From Bacillus sp. SB49 (lineage in GTDB: Bacteria > Bacillota > Bacilli > Bacillales > Halobacillaceae), in assembly GCF_000469135.2 (NCBI RefSeq), contig NZ_CP048117.1:3447501-3511500 (forward strand): a stretch of 64,000 bases of DNA, given 5' to 3'. A program made the position numbers and the translations under genes. Each line of letters starts with the position of its first letter. Positions within the stretch are counted from its first letter, which is position 1. This document shows positions 1 through 53,176 of this stretch, piece after piece. Below the pieces are notes generated by a model. It ran no database searches. It was given only the letters and a program-made list of their open reading frames with translations, and was not told where the DNA came from.

Positions 1-648
1 AGATATTCCTTTTTTCTGATGGTCAACCACCCGCTCCACGCCCTCCGGGAGATCCTTATCCAGATGACCTCCATCCGGAAGACCCGTCGCTTCATTGAAA
101 TGATAAATCCCGACATAAGTAGGCTCAAACAAGATATCCTTCAGCTGTTTCCAAGAAGAAGGATCCATATCAAGATTACTGTTTCGTATCAACTCCACAA
201 CCTGCGGAGCCGGCATTGTGAACAGAACTTTGTCGGACTGCCATTCTGCACCATCTTCCCCAAACAAACGATAGCCGCCGTCTATTTCCATCAGCTTGAC
301 GACCTTCGTATGTAAGGAAGTACGGATATTTTGGGCGAGCTGTTTGGCTAACCCGTTCATTCCATCGACTGCTGTGTAGCGAGGATAGTCCTCCCCGAAC
401 CAACGTTTCACCCACCCCTCATCGAGCCACTCCTGCGTTTCCTCCTCCAACTCTTCGGTCCTCACTGTGAAGAACTGGGCGCCGTGATCCGCCTTCCCCT
501 GAGCGACACGACGGGTAGCGAGACGTCCGCCGACACTTCTTCCTTTATCTACAAGAACGAAATTATCCCGGCCTTGTTTTTTAAACCTTCTGGCTGCCGT
601 AATACCAGCAAGCCCTGCACCGACGATCGTAATCTCATAGTGATCCAA
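1..648 (-). CDS. NAD(P)/FAD-dependent oxidoreductase, renalase-like (C-terminus cut by window edge)
   Basis: The first 216 residues of a flavoprotein are visible; the rest lies beyond position 1. A dinucleotide-binding fold opens the protein (IVGAGLAG, residues 8-14) and is followed by the second FAD contact motif GGRLATRR at residues 40-47, which with the nearby HGAQFF is typical of renalase/amine-oxidase-like oxidoreductases. The start is a TTG at 646-648 preceded by GGAGGTGG at good spacing, so it is missed by ATG-only gene calling. The substrate cannot be told from sequence. It is transcribed in the same direction as the RND exporter upstream but separated from it by a terminator, so it is probably its own unit. 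Confidence 0.75.
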   Translation of the reverse strand, partial: MDHYEITIVGAGLAGITAARRFKKQGRDNFVLVDKGRSVGGRLATRRVAQGKADHGAQFFTVRTEELEEETQEWLDEGWVKRWFGEDYPRYTAVDGMNGLAKQLAQNIRTSLHTKVVKLMEIDGGYRLFGEDGAEWQSDKVLFTMPAPQVVELIRNSNLDMDPSSWKQLKDILFEPTYVGIYHFNEATGLPDGGHLDKDLPEGVERVVDHQKKGIS

Positions 649-32356: not shown

Positions 32357-32968
32357 TCAAATTCTATACAAATCCCGAAACCTTAGATGCCATCCTAATC
32401 GATAAGAGAACACCCTGCACAAGATAATCAGAATAAATAATGCATAAGTCTGCCACGCACTCCCTACATCTACAAGCCCGATGCCGACTGCCAGCCCCAC
32501 AAGCATTGCCCATACTGCGTATATTTCCTGATGAAGAACCATCGGACGGCGCTGTGCAAGCACATCTCTGGCAACGCCGCCCCCGACTCCTGTCAGGATT
32601 GCCGAAAAAATGATGCCTCCAAGCGGAAATTGGTTGGCGACCGCAAAGGAGGCCCCTTGAAGAGCAAAAGCGGATAAACCAACGGCATCCGGATAGAAAT
32701 TCCATCTGTCCCATGCCATCACCCATGTCTTCGGAAAGAAATAGACAACAGCGATTGTTCCAAGCGCGACATAAAACAGATATCCCTGCTGCCAAACATG
32801 GACGACCGGGATCCCTAATGCGATATTACGAATAATCCCACCTGCGAACGGTGTCGCAATCCCGAGAATAAACGTACCGAATATGTCGTACCTTTCGTTG
32901 AGAGCGACAATGGCCCCGCTGAAAGCAAAAGCGCTGACAGCTAATATATTCAGGATTTCCCAAGTCAT
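32357..32968 (-). CDS. TRIC cation channel family membrane protein (UPF0126)
   Basis: A 203-residue integral membrane protein made of two repeats of three helices plus one more helix, as in prokaryotic TRIC channels. Each repeat has its glycine motif: GIATPFAGGIIRNIALG in the first and AILTGVGGGVARDVL in the second, both ending in the conserved Arg-Asn/Asp. These proteins form trimeric K+ or cation pores; B. subtilis YvgT is a relative. The start follows GGAGGAAAAGG. The gene is alone and convergent with cysK. Confidence 0.9.
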   Translation of the reverse strand: MTWEILNILAVSAFAFSGAIVALNERYDIFGTFILGIATPFAGGIIRNIALGIPVVHVWQQGYLFYVALGTIAVVYFFPKTWVMAWDRWNFYPDAVGLSAFALQGASFAVANQFPLGGIIFSAILTGVGGGVARDVLAQRRPMVLHQEIYAVWAMLVGLAVGIGLVDVGSAWQTYALFILIILCRVFSYRLGWHLRFRDLYRI

Positions 32969-35768: not shown

Positions 35769-37721
35769 TCAGTCCTTATCCAGGCGCTCCTTCACCCAAT
35801 TGATCAGACCGCCCGCCTTCATGATTTCAATTTGACGCTCCGAAAGAGCATGCTCCACTTCAATCTGTAGGTCTTTCCCCTTTACCTCGACATGAAAGGT
35901 AGAGGATTTAGAGAGTTTGTTTCGCAGATCCTTAAATTGAAGAACATCTCCCTCTTCCAGCTTCTCTAGATCATCAGCATTGGTAAAGGTTAGTGGTAGT
36001 ACACCGAAGTTAGCAAGGTTCTGCCAGTGAATACGGGCAAAGTCTTCGACAATAGCCACTTGCAATCCAAGATACTTCGGAGCTAAAGCCGCATGCTCCC
36101 TGCTCGATCCCTGCCCGTAATTCGCACCGGCAACAACCGCATGACCTCCGGATTCCTTCACATCCATCGCCCTTTCATAATAGGTGTCATCTACAATTTC
36201 AAAGGCAAACTTACTGATTTCCGGAAGGTTGCTTCGATAAGGAAGGACTCTCGCCCCGCCTGCTAATATTTCATCTGTCGAAATGTCATCCCCCATTTTC
36301 ATTAATACAGGGAGCTCCATTTCATCTGGAAGCTCACCCATTTCCGGAATGGAAGCCACATTTGGGCCTTTCACGAGGTCAACCTTTTTTGCCTCCGACA
36401 GAGGAAGCGGATCGTCAAGGAGCCGCGTATCTACCGTCGGCTTTTCAAGGTCAACGACAGAAGGATAAGCGAGGCCCGATTTTCTAGGGTCTGTAATCTT
36501 CCCTTCCAACGCACTTACTGCAGCAGTCTCCGGACTGCATAGATACACGCTGTCCTCTTTCGTTCCGGAACGCCCTGGAAAATTCCTAGGAGTCGTCCGC
36601 AAGCTGTTTCTTCCTGTCGCCGGTGCTTGTCCCATGCCGATACATCCGTTGCATCCCGCTTGGTGAAGCCTTGCTCCTGCCTGGAGGAAATTGGCTATAT
36701 GACCATTCTGAGATAGATCGACGAGCATCTGCCTGGATGTCGGGTTAATATCAAACGAAACACCGTCCGCAACTTGTTTACCAGCGACGATTTCTGATGC
36801 TACTGCAAAATCCCGGTACCCAGGGTTAGCGGAAGAACCTACATAGCTTTGATAGATCGCCTCCCCTTCCACCTCTTCGACCGGCACCACATTCCCCGGA
36901 CTGGAAGGCTTTGCAATGAGAGGGGCCAGGTCAGAGAGATGCAATTCGTCATGCACATCGTACCCCGCTCCCTCATCAGGCAAGAGCTCAAACCACTCTT
37001 TTTCCCTCCCATGCCGTGCCATGAAACGACGCGTAACTTCGTCCGCTGGAAAAACCGTTCCCGTAGCGCCTAGTTCCGCTCCCATATTTGCAATGACATG
37101 GCGGTCCATCGCCGTAAGGTTTTTCAAACCCGGGCCGTAATATTCAAAAACATGATGGACGCCCCCTTTTACTCCATGTCTACGCAGCATTTCAAGAATG
37201 ACATCCTTTGCGCTTACCCAATCAGGAAGCTCACCGGTCACCTTCACTCCCCACACTTTCGGCATTTTCACATAAAAAGGCTCTCCTGCGATAGCCATAG
37301 CAACATCGATTCCACCTGCCCCCATGGCAAGCATGCCCATACAGCCATTCGCACACGTATGACTGTCCGATCCAAGCAGCGTCTTCCCGGGAGCAGCGAG
37401 CCTCTGCATATGGACGGGATGACTCACTCCGTTTCCCGGCCTGCTGAAATGCAAACCGAAACGCTTGGATGCACTTTCCAGGAACAGGTGGTCATCCGGG
37501 TTCTTATTGTCTTCCTGTATTAAGTTATGGTCGACATATTGAGCGGACGCTTCCGTCTGTGCCCGCTCCACCCCCATCGCTTCAAGCTCAAGCATCACCA
37601 TTGTCCCTGTTGCATCCTGGGTAAGGGTTTGATCAATTTTTAATCCTATTTCCGAACCTGGTGTCATTTCTCCTTGAATAAGATGGCTGTTAATCAGCTT
37701 TTGTGTGACGTTATAACCCAC
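35769..37721 (-). CDS. Aconitate hydratase, 650-residue (Aquifex-type) form
   Basis: A fused LeuC/LeuD-type aconitase that isomerises citrate and isocitrate. The cluster ligands are present: LLGSDSHTCANG (first Cys, about residue 118) and GCNGCIGMGQAPATG (Cys pair, about 360). The swivel domain at the C-terminus carries YGQGSSREHAALAPKYLG with the substrate arginine. At 650 residues it is clearly shorter than the AcnA/CitB enzyme of Bacillus (about 900) and fits the putative Aquifex-type aconitase family, so it may be a second aconitase or act on a related substrate such as homoaconitate. The start is a GTG after AAGGAGG. It is convergent with mhqO. Confidence 0.88.
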   Translation of the reverse strand: MGYNVTQKLINSHLIQGEMTPGSEIGLKIDQTLTQDATGTMVMLELEAMGVERAQTEASAQYVDHNLIQEDNKNPDDHLFLESASKRFGLHFSRPGNGVSHPVHMQRLAAPGKTLLGSDSHTCANGCMGMLAMGAGGIDVAMAIAGEPFYVKMPKVWGVKVTGELPDWVSAKDVILEMLRRHGVKGGVHHVFEYYGPGLKNLTAMDRHVIANMGAELGATGTVFPADEVTRRFMARHGREKEWFELLPDEGAGYDVHDELHLSDLAPLIAKPSSPGNVVPVEEVEGEAIYQSYVGSSANPGYRDFAVASEIVAGKQVADGVSFDINPTSRQMLVDLSQNGHIANFLQAGARLHQAGCNGCIGMGQAPATGRNSLRTTPRNFPGRSGTKEDSVYLCSPETAAVSALEGKITDPRKSGLAYPSVVDLEKPTVDTRLLDDPLPLSEAKKVDLVKGPNVASIPEMGELPDEMELPVLMKMGDDISTDEILAGGARVLPYRSNLPEISKFAFEIVDDTYYERAMDVKESGGHAVVAGANYGQGSSREHAALAPKYLGLQVAIVEDFARIHWQNLANFGVLPLTFTNADDLEKLEEGDVLQFKDLRNKLSKSSTFHVEVKGKDLQIEVEHALSERQIEIMKAGGLINWVKERLDKD

Positions 37722-38042
37722 ACCGATTCCTCCTTCACATGGTTTACCGCCTGGTAATTTGGCGTTTTTTTCCTATAAACCCCATACCCGTAAGACATCG
37801 TCCCTATGCAAGGTTTCCTTATAATGACAAATTACGATAGTTTTCTCACCATGGAAAATCAGGTTTCCCTTTATATCAGGAAAGTCACCAGTCAAAAAAC
37901 CTCTTAAAGGGCCGTTTAAAGGGAGACTTGGGAAACTGGTAAATATAGTTGATTATTACTAATTGAGGATGTATTCTAAAAATAGATTCGAAAGAGCAAC
38001 ATCTCTTAAGAGTCGACAGTTGATCAACTAGGTGTGTTGAAA
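37722..38042. other. Intergenic region between aconitase and the RRNPP regulator
   Basis: This 320-nt gap holds no convincing gene. On the plus strand TTGATT (37949-37954), 17 nt, TATTCT (37972-37977) is a candidate promoter for the regulator. Just before the ribosome site, AGTTGATCAACT (38018-38029) is a perfect 12-bp palindrome and could be an autoregulatory site. Two similar purine-rich words (CTTAAAGGG, TTTAAAGGG) stand near 37900-37923. The aconitase promoter must lie on the minus strand here, but I cannot fix it. Confidence 0.5.
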
Positions 38043-39326
38043 ATGGAATATGGTAAAGTGCTCCGGTTCCATCGGGTGAAACAGGGTTTGACGCAAAACC
38101 AGTTAGCAGATGGAATCATCTCGCCGGCATATCTGTCTAAGATTGAGAACAATCAGACCGTGCCTGCCTCCGAAGTGCTGGAAATGCTATATGAACGTCT
38201 GGGATTGGAATTCCATGACGCTTCCTACAGCCACCCTTCCAAAGAAAAGCTGAAAAAGTGGTATGAAGCTATCATGTTCAAGCGGAAGGAAGAAGCACGA
38301 AGGTTGAAGGAGGAGCTGCTCAGTCAGCAGGATATGCGGAACAATCATCACCTTTATATTTACTACAAGCTGTACAGCATCCGCCACTTTTTGTTAGAAA
38401 ACGAAGTGGAGGAGGCTTATGAAGCATGGAGTGAAATAAAGCAGCACCTGGATACATTTGATGATGAGATGAAGTACTACTATCATTTGAGCAATGGACT
38501 GCTCCAGTATTACCGAAGTGATTTCGAGGAATCATTCCAGCAGTTGATGAAGGCGGAAGTCTTATCGCGCTCCATGAATATGGAAAGCTGGGAAGTGAGC
38601 GACCTTTTCTACCACTTGGCACTAAGTTCAAGTCAGGCGCACCATGTGTCAGCTTCTATTTTTTATACAGAACAGGCACTCCGCATTTATAAAGATCATT
38701 ACGACCTAGGAAAGAGTGCTGATTGCCATCTCATTTTAGGAATAAGTTTCAGCAGGCTCCAGAATCATGAAAAAGCGAGGGAGAATTACGAGTCTGCTCT
38801 CAAGATCGCTTCTCAGACTAAGGACCACCAGCAGTTGAAACTGGTTTATATTAACATGGCTGTTTTAGACTCTAATCTAGATAATCATACGTTATCCATC
38901 GAGCATTACAAAAAGAGCCTGGAGTACACAGAAGCATCATCTTCCACCTATGATATCTATGAATACATGAATATTATTCACGGATTAATCCTCGAGCACT
39001 ACCTCATAGGTAACAAGGAAGGATGCCTCTATTGGGTAAATGAAGGTAAACAAAGGCTTGTAGATTTCCCTTCAAAAGAGCACACGTATCATTTTGATGT
39101 TTTTCAAAAGATACTAACGAACGCTCCAGATACCCTTGAATTTCTTGAAGATGAAGTACTTCCATATTTCAAAGAAATGAAGGATCCGGAGTATGTCATC
39201 AGATACGCTAAATTCCTAGCCGACTTATTTGAGAAGCAAAGGATGTATAAGCGTTCTTCTGAATATTTAAGGTTAGCAATGCAATTGTTAAATAAACATT
39301 CTCATTTAGGAGGCATGATCTTATGA
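38043..39326 (+). CDS. RRNPP-type peptide-responsive transcription regulator (NprR/PlcR-like)
   Basis: A 427-residue cytoplasmic regulator: an N-terminal XRE helix-turn-helix (VLRFHRVKQGLTQNQLADGI, then YLSKIENNQTVPAS, residues 5-45) followed by about 340 residues of TPR-like helical pairs (for example HLALSSSQAHHVSASIFYTEQAL and LGISFSRLQNHEKARENYESAL). This is the RRNPP architecture of PlcR, NprR and PrgX, where an imported peptide binds the TPR groove and changes DNA binding. The ATG at 38043 follows AGGTG at 8 nt; GTG and TTG codons just before it are less likely. Its last four bases overlap the start of a 39-residue propeptide gene, the usual position of the cognate signal gene. Confidence 0.85.
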   Translation: MEYGKVLRFHRVKQGLTQNQLADGIISPAYLSKIENNQTVPASEVLEMLYERLGLEFHDASYSHPSKEKLKKWYEAIMFKRKEEARRLKEELLSQQDMRNNHHLYIYYKLYSIRHFLLENEVEEAYEAWSEIKQHLDTFDDEMKYYYHLSNGLLQYYRSDFEESFQQLMKAEVLSRSMNMESWEVSDLFYHLALSSSQAHHVSASIFYTEQALRIYKDHYDLGKSADCHLILGISFSRLQNHEKARENYESALKIASQTKDHQQLKLVYINMAVLDSNLDNHTLSIEHYKKSLEYTEASSSTYDIYEYMNIIHGLILEHYLIGNKEGCLYWVNEGKQRLVDFPSKEHTYHFDVFQKILTNAPDTLEFLEDEVLPYFKEMKDPEYVIRYAKFLADLFEKQRMYKRSSEYLRLAMQLLNKHSHLGGMIL

Positions 39327-39442
39327 AGAAAGCCATCGCTTTCATCGCTGCAGTTGGCATTGTTGTTTCTGTCTTAGCTCCTTTGACACAGGATGAGGCA
39401 GTACGTACCTACCCAAGACCATTAGTTGAAGACGTAGTTTAA
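39323..39442 (+). CDS. Putative secreted signalling propeptide of the RRNPP system
   Basis: A 39-residue peptide whose gene shares ATGA with the end of the regulator gene and has its own AGGAGG at 9-nt spacing. The N-terminus is a textbook Sec signal: two lysines then a hydrophobic core (AIAFIAAVGIVVSVLAPL). After it comes a short polar linker TQDEAV and the C-terminal region RTYPRPLVEDVV, the likely exported part. PapR, NprX and Phr peptides are built the same way and are trimmed outside to 5-10 residues before re-import by the Opp permease. It is too short for most gene finders. A terminator follows after about 65 nt, so the two genes form a closed unit. Confidence 0.75.
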   Translation: MKKAIAFIAAVGIVVSVLAPLTQDEAVRTYPRPLVEDVV

Positions 39443-39508
39443 CTTCTTTTTAGTAGTATGTAACAGTTTTTAAGCACCTCCCCTAATCCTATACCTATAT
39501 AAACATTT

Positions 39509-39542
39509 ACCTCTACCCTGACCCGGTAGAGGTCTTTTTTTC
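39509..39542 (+). terminator. Terminator of the RRNPP operon
   Basis: ACCTCTACC (39509-39517) and GGTAGAGGT (39525-39533) pair, followed by eight T. Confidence 0.88.
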
Positions 39543-39546
39543 ATGA

Positions 39547-39593
39547 AAAAAATCAGCAGCGCCGGGACAGCACTACTGATTTTGGAAATATTT
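39547..39593 (-). terminator. Terminator of the DUF6933 gene
   Basis: On the minus strand AAAATCAGTAGTGC pairs with GCGCTGCTGATTTT (two G-U pairs), then a T run. The TAG stop codon of the gene lies inside the left arm. Confidence 0.75.
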
Positions 39594-40088
39594 AATGAAA
39601 GTTTTATAAGGATAAGTATGCTCCAGCGGACGGAAAGGCATCTTATTATTTTCTTCATTTATTTTCTGGGCATCAATGTCTTCATAGGCTTGGCCTTGGA
39701 TCTGATGTTCCATCGTAGATTTAAGATCATTCATGATGCCTATGACCCGCCTGTTTTTTGTTTTCGTATATACGATTTCATCTGCCGCCCTAAGCATTTC
39801 TTCCCCAACAGACTCGTCAATTTCAAGCAGTTGAAATAGCTGCTTGAGCGAACCTTTAATGACGGTGTCGAGGTGGTCGAATTGCGGCTTTCTCAATCCG
39901 AATAAGGTCAGGTTAAGGCCTGTCGCATTGTTGACAAGGATTAAACATTTCCTGCGGTTGAAAGTAACCAGGTTCGCATGCCATTGATGGATTTCAGGTA
40001 CTTCTTTATATGCTTCTACGTCCTGGATCGGCTTATCTATCTCATTCTGTAATTTCTTTGTCGCTCCGATAACGAACACTTTCTCCAC
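39573..40088 (-). CDS. DUF6933 domain protein
   Basis: A 171-residue soluble protein that I assign to DUF6933 from its remembered signature: HQWHANLVTFNRRKCLILVNNATGLNLTLFGL (about residues 33-65), followed by a helical region and YTKTKNRRVIGIMNDL near residue 108. Members are short, widespread in Firmicutes and often near plasmid or toxin-like genes, but their role is unknown. There is no membrane segment. GAGAAAGGGGTG stands before the start. It is a single-gene unit between terminators. Confidence 0.7.
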   Translation of the reverse strand: MEKVFVIGATKKLQNEIDKPIQDVEAYKEVPEIHQWHANLVTFNRRKCLILVNNATGLNLTLFGLRKPQFDHLDTVIKGSLKQLFQLLEIDESVGEEMLRAADEIVYTKTKNRRVIGIMNDLKSTMEHQIQGQAYEDIDAQKINEENNKMPFRPLEHTYPYKTFIKYFQNQ

Positions 40089-40129
40089 CCCTTTCTCTCG
40101 TGTGCCTCTATTCTAACGCTTTCTGTAAG

Positions 40130-40163
40130 AAAAACAAAGAAGAACCGTTGCGGTCCTTCTTTG
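40130..40163 (-). terminator. Terminator of the trehalose operon
   Basis: On the minus strand CAAAGAAG-GA-CCG and CGG-TT-CTTCTTTG pair around CAA, then TTTTTC. It starts 14 nt after the treR stop. Confidence 0.82.
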
Positions 40164-40176
40164 CATCATGTTTTAT

Positions 40177-40893
40177 TTATAATTTGGTACGTCTGGCAAA
40201 GTCAACGAATTGAAACTTATCCGGACGGTGTCTGGACTCTGTGTACTGAAACACCGTTGCATCCGCCAGATAGACGTAACTGCGGATCACGACAACTTGC
40301 GGATGTCCGGCTAGATCCAGATAGCTTTCGTCTTCTTTCGTAACCGGCTCGACAACAATCTCCTTTTTAGCGAAACTGATGACAAGACCTAATTCGTTTT
40401 CCAAATACTCGTATAGGGAACGTTCGGCTGCTTCCTTCGTCAAATCCGGAACGATGTCTTCACGAAGGAAGTCTTTATCGAGAATAATCCTCTCTCCTCC
40501 TACTTCCCGCGATCGGACAACCTTCCACAGGTTGGTTTGCTGAGGACAGTTCAACCGCTCCCCCAACTCCCCCTGTCCACTGATACGCGCCAATTCGTGA
40601 ACAGACGTATGGAAGGTCTGCCCCATCTGATCGGCAAGCTCCTTGAAGCTCGTCAATCCGGAAACAGGAAATTCGAATTTCCCGTGATCGAGTACGACAG
40701 ATCCCTTCCCCCGCACTTTTTGAATATAGCCGTTTTGAGCAAGCAGGTGCAAAGCTTTTCGGATTGTCTCTCTAGATGTCTGGAATTCATCTGTCAGCTC
40801 ATGCTCGGAAGGAAGGGTATCCCCTGGAGTCAACACTCCACTTTGAATTCTCTCCGCCAATTCACTGTAGATAACAAAATACTTGTTTTTCAT
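40177..40893 (-). CDS. treR: Trehalose operon repressor TreR (GntR family)
   Basis: A 238-residue repressor with a GntR winged helix (LPSEHELTDEFQTSRETIRKALHLLAQNGYI, residues 27-57) and a UTRA effector domain (from FKELADQMG onward, including VVRSREVGGERIILDKDFL). In B. subtilis TreR is released from DNA by trehalose 6-phosphate. Two palindromes upstream of treP match its known site. It is the last gene of the operon, 25 nt after treC, so it is autoregulated through the same promoter. The ribosome site (GGTGA) is weak, fitting low repressor levels. Confidence 0.94.
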   Translation of the reverse strand: MKNKYFVIYSELAERIQSGVLTPGDTLPSEHELTDEFQTSRETIRKALHLLAQNGYIQKVRGKGSVVLDHGKFEFPVSGLTSFKELADQMGQTFHTSVHELARISGQGELGERLNCPQQTNLWKVVRSREVGGERIILDKDFLREDIVPDLTKEAAERSLYEYLENELGLVISFAKKEIVVEPVTKEDESYLDLAGHPQVVVIRSYVYLADATVFQYTESRHRPDKFQFVDFARRTKL

Positions 40894-51913: not shown

Positions 51914-53176
51914 ATGAAAGGTACGTTGATTAAACAACATCGCAAATTTAAGAATATGACATTGGAAGAATTAGCTTCTGGAATTTGCTCAGTATCCTAC
52001 TTAAGTAAAATTGAACACAACACAATAAACGCCAGTGACGAGATCTATCGTTTATTAGGACAACGTTTGAACATCAAACTGACCGATATTAACCAAGACT
52101 TCGATGAACGTATATATCAGGATCTTCTTGAATGGCACGAAGCAGCACAGATGAGGGACTTTCCACTAATGAAGAAGATGAAGGAGAAGTGCAGAATCTC
52201 CCTTGAGGACAATAAGAACATTCTGCTGGTCAACCTTTTCAACGTCATTCTGGTAAGGCATGAAATGACGATGACTGGAAACCCGATTCCTGAACAAACG
52301 CTTAAAGAATTGAAAGATATCGTGCAGGATGCTTCCAGTGAATACAGATTTTTCTTCTACAAAACTGTCGGTATTCATTACCTCCTTCAAGGAGAATTAC
52401 GTGAAGCACTTCGGCATTTCCGTGAAGCAAAGCGGTTAATGTCTACCCTTCCTTGGAAAGAAGGAGAAGTTTATTACCATCTTGCGCTAACCTACTCTAA
52501 AACAAGGTCCTATGTAGAATCCACTTACTATGCTTTTCTAGCCTTGGAAGAATACAAGTCCAGTCTCCATTATTCACGAATGGTGGATAATTACATCATC
52601 ATCGCCATCAACTACAATTCCCTGGGAGTATTGGAAATTGCAGAAGAATTTCTACACAAAGTTTTAAAAGTGGCAAAATATCATCTTCCCCCCGTGGAAC
52701 GAAGGCGCATCTATCACAACCTCGGTACCAACTACATCTACCAAGAGAAATATGACCTGGCCTTTGAATATTTAAACAAAGCTTATGAAATCCCTACAGA
52801 AGAAAGGGACTTCATATCAGGTACCATCTATCTCCTTGCGCTTACCAGCTACCAATCCGGAGATATGGACTTGTGTAAGCAATACATCAGAGATGGGGAA
52901 ATAGAATCCGAGAAAGATGGACTTCTTAAATTCCAACATAAGTTTTATATATTGAAGAACCGCATCCACGGAAAGACCCGTGACGATGCTTTCATCGATA
53001 AATTAGAAAACGAAATCATCCCTGATTTTCGCAGGCTGAATGAATACAAGGACTACAAGGAAGCAGTGGAAATGCTGGCGAACCTGTATTATCAAAAACG
53101 AATGTACAAAAAAGCGGCAACGTACTATAAAGAAGCCAACAACTACAAACTTACGCAAAAAGCTGACCTTGTATAA
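51914..53176 (+). CDS. Second RRNPP-type regulator, no adjacent peptide gene
   Basis: A 420-residue regulator of the same plan as the one at 38.0-39.3 kb: an XRE helix-turn-helix (LIKQHRKFKNMTLEELASGI, then YLSKIEHNTINASDEI, residues 4-42) and TPR-like helix pairs to the end (for instance LGTNYIYQEKYDLAFEYLNKAYEI). The two proteins share small N-terminal words (LSKIE) and C-terminal YxKRMYK repeats (YYQKRMYKKAATYYKEA here, FEKQRMYKRSSEYLRLA there) and are likely paralogues. Unlike the first, this gene runs straight into a terminator with no small ORF, so its signal would be encoded elsewhere or it senses something else. GGGAG precedes the ATG. Confidence 0.83.
   Translation: MKGTLIKQHRKFKNMTLEELASGICSVSYLSKIEHNTINASDEIYRLLGQRLNIKLTDINQDFDERIYQDLLEWHEAAQMRDFPLMKKMKEKCRISLEDNKNILLVNLFNVILVRHEMTMTGNPIPEQTLKELKDIVQDASSEYRFFFYKTVGIHYLLQGELREALRHFREAKRLMSTLPWKEGEVYYHLALTYSKTRSYVESTYYAFLALEEYKSSLHYSRMVDNYIIIAINYNSLGVLEIAEEFLHKVLKVAKYHLPPVERRRIYHNLGTNYIYQEKYDLAFEYLNKAYEIPTEERDFISGTIYLLALTSYQSGDMDLCKQYIRDGEIESEKDGLLKFQHKFYILKNRIHGKTRDDAFIDKLENEIIPDFRRLNEYKDYKEAVEMLANLYYQKRMYKKAATYYKEANNYKLTQKADLV

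Follow-up and report, generated by a model that had tools for sequence, protein, structure and literature searches.

Here we present a conserved regulator-peptide gene pair from Bacillus sp. SB49 that is probably a chromosomal quorum-sensing system of the RRNPP type, in an NprR-like subfamily, activating secreted proteases. Comparison of related genomes revealed that the regulator is followed by a small gene whose product carries a conserved core, that the modelled receptor has an NprR/Rap-like fold, and that a pair of sites with near-constant spacing, which we predict to be an operator, recurs before the regulator and before secreted subtilase genes. A sequence-only reading of the same DNA had proposed an RRNPP pair, and the fold, the conserved pair and the core all support that proposal; the system belongs to a known kind, the NprR type. 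That reading did not include the link to proteases, the operator with its paired sites, the additional conservation at the DNA level or an orphan paralogue of the regulator.

The window, by which we mean the whole stretch of 64,000 nt that was analysed, contains the following features, given with the basis for each.

37876-37935, unstranded: predicted 60-bp operator (spacing and centre in orthologues; inverted form in distant relatives)
37949-37977, forward strand: sigma-A-like regulator promoter, TTGATT, 17 nt, TATTCT (sequence, conservation)
37985-38014, forward strand: possible leader stem-loop, GATTC...GAGTC (RNAalifold, 33 leaders)
38018-38029, unstranded: perfect 12-bp palindrome AGTTGATCAACT just before the start codon (leader alignment)
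38043-39326, forward strand: XRE-type HTH plus TPR regulator, the receptor, 427 aa (ORF, Pfam, PDB search, model, Foldseek)
39270-39311, forward strand: codons 410-423, most of them unusually conserved at synonymous sites (codon analysis, 33 genomes)
39308-39313, forward strand: AGGAGG ribosome-binding site of the peptide gene (sequence, kept in orthologues)
39323-39442, forward strand: 39-aa propeptide, predicted to be exported, MKKAIAFIAAVGIVVSVLAPLTQDEAVRTYPRPLVEDVV (ORF, orthologues, peptide alignment, distant loci)
39509-39533, unstranded: terminator-like hairpin at the operon end, facing a convergent DUF6933 gene at 39573-40088 (hairpin scan)
51914-53176, forward strand: orphan paralogue of the regulator, with no peptide gene behind (genome search, relatives)

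The regulator ORF runs from the ATG at 38043, with an in-frame GTG at 38034, to the stop at 39324-39326, and the ATGA at 39323-39326 makes a four-base overlap between this stop and the start of the peptide gene. ORF calls and Pfam confirmed the arrangement described earlier, an XRE/TPR regulator overlapped by a small gene with its own AGGAGG. The Sec-type signal that had been assigned to the small product was recovered as a probable export signal, judged from charge and hydropathy. What had been called a strong terminator is present as a hairpin with a 9-bp stem followed by CTTTTTTTC, but the scan by itself is a weak guide to its strength, because seven terminator-like sites were found in 37000-40500 where 3.2 were expected. 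Upstream, the segment that we take to be a sigma-A-like promoter from its fit to the consensus has TTGATT as its -35 box in the window and TTGAAA in most relatives.

A match to the regulator was found in 80 of 101 genomes (the window genome and 100 relatives). The close set comprises 33 orthologues with intact regulators (L001-L033, window included); a further locus, L034 of genome G015, has a split regulator frame and was excluded from the A2 alignments and the codon analysis. The nearest named relatives of the regulator are Halobacillus, at 24 loci (L051-L074) of 55-70% identity, and these two sets are not independent, because many of the named loci appear to be from the same genomes. Additionally, 56 distant loci carry relatives at 27-37% identity.

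The predicted operator consists of site 1, TCAGGAAA at 37876-37883, and site 2, TTGGGAAA at 37928-37935, whose starts lie 52 bp apart, around a centre CTTAAAG at 37903-37909. The 52-bp spacing is kept in 32 of the 33 close orthologues, L031 being the exception, and a CTTAAAG-like centre lies near the midpoint in 32 of 33. At the Halobacillus regulator both sites point in the same direction, not inverted, and site 1 is degenerate. Among the distant loci, the TTTCCCAA/TTGGGAAA motif occurs in the examined flanks of the pair in 30 of 56, versus 67 of 763 random 1220-nt segments from the same loci. Across the 1.10 Mb that the distant loci cover, inverted TTGGGAAA/TTTCCCAA pairs without any mismatch numbered 20 at spacings of 51-53 bp, versus none at 8-50 bp and six at 54-300 bp, and the reversed sequences held none at 8-300 bp; the other arrangements within 200 bp gave nine and two same-direction pairs (one at 53 bp) and two outward-facing pairs. 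The 20 exact elements all differ in sequence, some being from close relatives. When one mismatch was permitted, 25 pairs were obtained from these loci, which had been chosen for this regulator, and 24 of them stand before the regulator and/or a subtilase: 14 before the regulator, some of these also before a divergent subtilase, and ten at a subtilase alone, with one (L100) at neither. The pair in L096 lies inside the overlong start of a subtilase ORF. All 16 neighbouring proteins tested are Peptidase_S8 by Pfam.

The 3.77-Mb genome of the window itself contains only two inverted pairs with at most one mismatch and spacings of 51-53. The first, with one mismatch, starts about 130 nt before the gene for a secreted 403-aa subtilase at 2,829,422, unlinked to the regulator. 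The second (L208, G000:C1:371005), also with one mismatch, lies 126 nt before an SLT lytic transglycosylase and is possibly a further target, possibly a chance occurrence. Of 44 family genomes, 40 have a match to the subtilase, and in 36 it is strong (E < 1e-170). Among the 30 subtilase loci returned, 13 carry a pair with at most two mismatches some 120-130 nt ahead of the gene start and the other 17 are without one, versus 1 of 1500 single-base shuffles. Furthermore, eight genomes from two other genera have, by coordinates, the subtilase homologue next to a regulator relative. Activation rather than repression of the regulator and subtilase genes appears probable from the sequence, given that site 2 is found on the upstream side both of the -35 box in the regulator promoter and of the likely subtilase promoter region.

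Looser searches of the same genome were set aside. The same-direction paired pattern showed no excess with up to three mismatches (24 and 29 sites versus 25 and 24 in the control), and inverted pairs spaced by 52, when as many as three mismatches are allowed, are too loose a class for naming targets, because 41 were found versus 17 in the control. No protease gene was recognised by eye beside three inverted sites with two mismatches and one same-direction site with one mismatch. Within the window, a single TTTCCCAAGTC was observed at 32956-32966, at the start of a 203-aa gene, with no partner site seen by eye.

A second protease family is also linked to the pair. In eight of the 24 named Halobacillus loci, a divergent M4 (thermolysin-type) protease gene lies about 225 bp from the regulator, and both of the two tested from these eight have propeptide, catalytic and C-terminal domains by Pfam. 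An M4 protease gene lies just downstream of the pair in five of the 56 distant loci (one Anoxybacillus, three Geobacillus and one Alkalihalobacillus), and in three loci read, a TTTTCCCAATAC-type site stands between the Geobacillus regulator and the M4 protease gene. No M4 protease gene adjoins the pair in the window; the genome has a single M4 gene elsewhere, with no exact half-site seen by eye in the 336 nt before it. Nishiya and Imanaka are said to have described, in 1990, a transcriptional activator of the Bacillus stearothermophilus neutral protease gene, which the Geobacillus members here resemble in sitting directly upstream of an M4 protease gene. We know of no peptide for that activator, and a literature search on it found nothing.

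The recurrence of the paired element before several protease genes and before the regulator would also fit an alternative, which we consider unlikely, in which the element is the site of another, global regulator of proteases and the RRNPP pair is only one of its targets. However, the pairs in the searched loci, which were chosen for this regulator, sit at the regulator or at subtilases, and the exact half-site was not seen in the 400 nt before any of 20 orphan paralogues. The spacing of five helical turns would moreover suit a peptide-induced tetramer of the kind proposed for NprR, since the relevant part of PMC4970707 reports peptide-bound NprR as a tetramer and suggests that it binds two DNA sites at once.

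The preferred reading, an NprR-like pair with its own operator, is further supported by the receptor. Pfam found HTH_3 (38 bits) and TPR_12 above cut-off and RapH_N just under it (26.8 versus 27), and a sequence search of the PDB returned NprR first (2.4e-14) and Rap105 next (7.3e-10). The AlphaFold model (pLDDT 89, 49-row alignment) has 18-19 helices after the HTH, and its top Foldseek matches were RapI, NprR and Rap, as for a cytoplasmic TPR receptor of the RRNPP fold. Against apo NprR (5dbk_B) the TM score was 0.72 by query and 0.87 by target, with an rmsd of 2.7 A; Rap and NprR were matched over about 360 columns, while PlcR reached a TM of only 0.50 by target. The architecture is thus that of the NprR type (HTH, Rap-like N-terminal bundle and nine TPR), with RapH_N just short of its cut-off and a whole-length match to NprR and Rap.

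Since NprR is the best PDB sequence match, the fold is common to both, equivalents of its W79 and Y223 are kept in all 33 close orthologues and relatives show linkage to a neutral protease, the regulator could simply be a bifunctional NprR orthologue, acting as a Rap-like phosphatase of Spo0F when peptide is absent and activating transcription when it is present. We regard this as rather improbable. Residues of NprR named in the part of PMC4970707 that describes them were mapped by an alignment at about 20% identity, at which single positions may be off. Among the residues that contact Spo0F (D107, Y118, E188 and Y223), only Y223 is kept in 33 of 33; D107 becomes N in 32 and Y118 becomes R in 29, and E188 is E in only seven. 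The peptide residue R126 is N in 28 of 33, the tetramer residue F225 is L in all 33, and of the dimer residues, Y410 is L and N407 is S or T in all 33. In a 71-row tree, which included the window with six of the 24 named Halobacillus loci and the orphan of the window with five of the 20 fetched, NprR lies outside the clade of 61 rows that these regulators form, with modest support (80/96) and a long branch of its own, and it joins the orphan paralogues weakly (81/43). Because of this modestly supported separation and the changed residues, we use the term NprR-like and do not class the regulator as NprR itself, and the analogy is partial, because the contact residues for Spo0F, peptide and dimer are mostly changed. 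Canonical NprR was matched in none of 299 genomes at E 1e-80 and in one of 398 at E 1e-25, there by a 27% relative.

The NprR-like receptor is accompanied by its small gene throughout the close set. A small ORF of 38-42 aa stands at -4 behind an AGGAGG in all 33 intact orthologues, with a GTG start in three, so that orthologues do keep the small ORF, a point on which the initial proposal depended. The 34th, L034, retains an intact-looking 40-aa peptide ending HPRPLVVDQI beside its split regulator. Among the distant loci, a looser filter, again based on charge and hydropathy, placed a small ORF with an export signal near the regulator stop in 51 of 56, versus 10 of 695 control ORFs; the loci missed were L089, L108, L113, L116 and L128, and in L116 (the same as L047) and L128 a candidate peptide is visible by eye. 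In the window, under the filter used for the named Halobacillus loci, only one of 52 ORFs of at least 150 aa is followed by an exported small ORF, namely the 427-aa regulator. This regulator-peptide layout is far beyond chance. The downstream neighbourhood is variable: between the peptide gene and the DUF6933 gene (39443-39573 in the window), 21 of the 24 named Halobacillus loci have a gene of about 470 aa, a metallo-beta-lactamase plus rhodanese protein in the one tested by Pfam, and the eight loci with an M4 protease have a DUF429-like gene (one tested); both are absent from the window.

The orphan paralogue at 51914-53176 is followed directly by a terminator-like hairpin, and under a looser filter none of the 20 orphan paralogues fetched has a peptide gene behind it. 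It is possibly an eavesdropping receptor or one that works without peptide.

In the 33-row peptide alignment the propeptides share a core pattern, (Y/H/W/F)-P-x-P-L-V, which in the window is YPRPLV at residues 30-35, encoded at 39410-39427. Both prolines are invariant (33/33), although L025 has no residue between them. The first proline is preceded by Y in 14, H in 12, W in five and F in two; between the prolines stands mostly R (24) or Q (5), and L (29) and then V (21) follow. Within the core, pairwise amino acid identity is 68% and 55% of codon differences are synonymous; the corresponding values for residues 36-39, which end the propeptide, are 25% and 10%. Because the core is under conservation while residues 36-39 drift, the signal is best placed on residues 30-35 rather than at the extreme C-terminus, and the residues trailing it would be either trimmed or free. 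This corrects the earlier expectation of a mature signal in the last 5-10 residues. The tail as a whole does not drift at random: its core is conserved and the flanks of the core drift. Repeated units, which suggest what the mature signal may be, were found in 12 of 51 distant propeptides, including three copies of SEPDHPKIV, two of AGEDHPRPDV and several of HESHPDPQSVIEVA, in agreement with the survey text of PMC9765709, where 17 of 17 atypically large propeptides of the NprR subfamily carried repeats. The longest propeptide seen, of 187 aa in L110, has about ten ANEEVVEPT-type units. Among the matches listed in a literature search with short tail strings, all were unrelated by title.

Conservation at the DNA level extends beyond the operator. 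RNAalifold on the 33 leaders predicted 13 pairs in the stem-loop and palindrome helices, five of them with double changes that keep the pair; covariation contributes only -0.58 of -5.58 kcal/mol, so that support for the leader stem-loop is weak. The palindrome AGTTGATCAACT is identical in 31 of 33 leaders, with one change in the other two, and is the only exact copy in the genome; as a regulon-wide operator it was rejected, with 14 sites at up to one mismatch (one exact) versus 10 in the control. Near the regulator 3' end, the 12-codon window 409-420 has an excess codon identity of 0.52, versus a mean of 0.088 (sd 0.086) over all windows. The element at 39270-39311 holds an imperfect palindrome, TTAGCAATGCAATTGTTAA, and may serve the peptide gene as a promoter or control site; it was rejected as a regulon site, with only one copy in the genome when up to three mismatches were allowed. 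A SigH promoter for the peptide gene in this region is unsupported, because matches to the SigH consensus were few and at scattered places (1/33 strict and 4/33 loose, versus 1/99 controls each). Rfam gave seven hits on 37500-39700, all below gathering scores.

The strong conservation just before the peptide gene, together with the tight translational coupling and conserved AGGAGG, might be expected if translation of the small ORF were itself what counts, its product being a membrane or leader peptide rather than a secreted signal. Selection on the polar, proline-rich core beyond the hydrophobic part, the tandem repetition of the core unit in relatives and the varying spacing of peptide gene and regulator in relatives argue against this, and we hold it to be very improbable. 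That the small ORF is a chance ORF is refuted by its conservation and can be dismissed: under one filter, all 24 regulators of the named Halobacillus loci have an exported small ORF behind them, versus none of the 375 other ORFs there that reach 150 aa.

According to the quorum-sensing reading that we prefer, the 39-aa product would leave the cell by Sec and be cut down to a short peptide that includes (Y/H/W/F)-P-x-P-L-V; this peptide would then be taken up again and bind in the TPR groove of the regulator. The peptide-bound regulator would then assemble on the 60-bp operator, at two sites five helical turns apart, and activate, in a density-dependent manner, its own regulator-pheromone operon and secreted protease genes, namely the subtilase at 2.83 Mb and, in some sister species, the divergent M4 protease. 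A broader proposal, towards which we lean only slightly, is that an aromatic/His-P-x-P code, often in tandem, directs an RRNPP activator to a 60-bp operator of three parts throughout the Bacillaceae. That operator, in which a CTTTAAAG-like centre lies between two CCCAA sites separated by five helical turns, would be common to the regulator-pheromone operon and to linked and unlinked secreted protease genes; if so, its spacing would read out the peptide-induced tetramer, and protease regulons would be predictable from DNA alone.

NprR-type systems are reported from 21 genera in the survey text of PMC9765709, RRNPP pairs have been surveyed in bulk there and in PMC10075063, and the relevant passages of a 2025 paper (PMC12167742) give a KEGG-annotated nprR in three Halobacillus strains and call quorum sensing in this genus uncharacterised. 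Halobacillus is unmentioned in the main texts of the two surveys, whose supplements may list this pair, and a literature search for RRNPP with Halobacillus found none. Nothing pointing to a 60-bp paired operator was found in a literature search. The literature searches, in whose scope the survey supplements did not fall, found neither this peptide code nor the operator. New here is the predicted 60-bp operator, two CCCAA-type sites 51-53 bp apart, before the regulator and secreted subtilases. These findings provide a candidate signal, receptor, operator and target for a halophile genus in which those passages of PMC12167742 describe quorum sensing as uncharacterised, as well as a handle, at the DNA level, on how NprR-type receptors may use their peptide-induced tetramer. 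The tandem propeptides indicate the message residues and so leave less guesswork in the choice of synthetic peptides. If the reading is true, it suggests that crowding switches on secreted protein-digesting enzymes through this pair.

The pair can be compared with its closest known systems. With PlcR-PapR it shares an HTH plus TPR receptor and an adjoining peptide gene, but PlcR is of the five-TPR type according to PMC12700828, while the regulator here has 18-19 helices after its HTH and matches PlcR less well in structure. Bacillus Rap-Phr systems have the TPR fold, an adjacent secreted propeptide and the RapH_N region that scores just under cut-off here; Rap proteins, however, have no HTH according to PMC9765709, whereas this regulator has HTH_3 above cut-off. 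With NprR-NprX of the Bacillus cereus group, the pair has in common the HTH plus TPR receptor, the downstream propeptide with its predicted export, the link to a neutral protease, which here is seen in some relatives, and the fold. The NprX signal, given as SKPDIVG in PMC5641580, has a basic-Pro core, as does PRPLV here. Unlike NprX, the core here is aromatic/His-P-x-P, and unlike the regulators described here, NprR stands outside their clade, with modest support, and differs from them in most of the contact residues tested.
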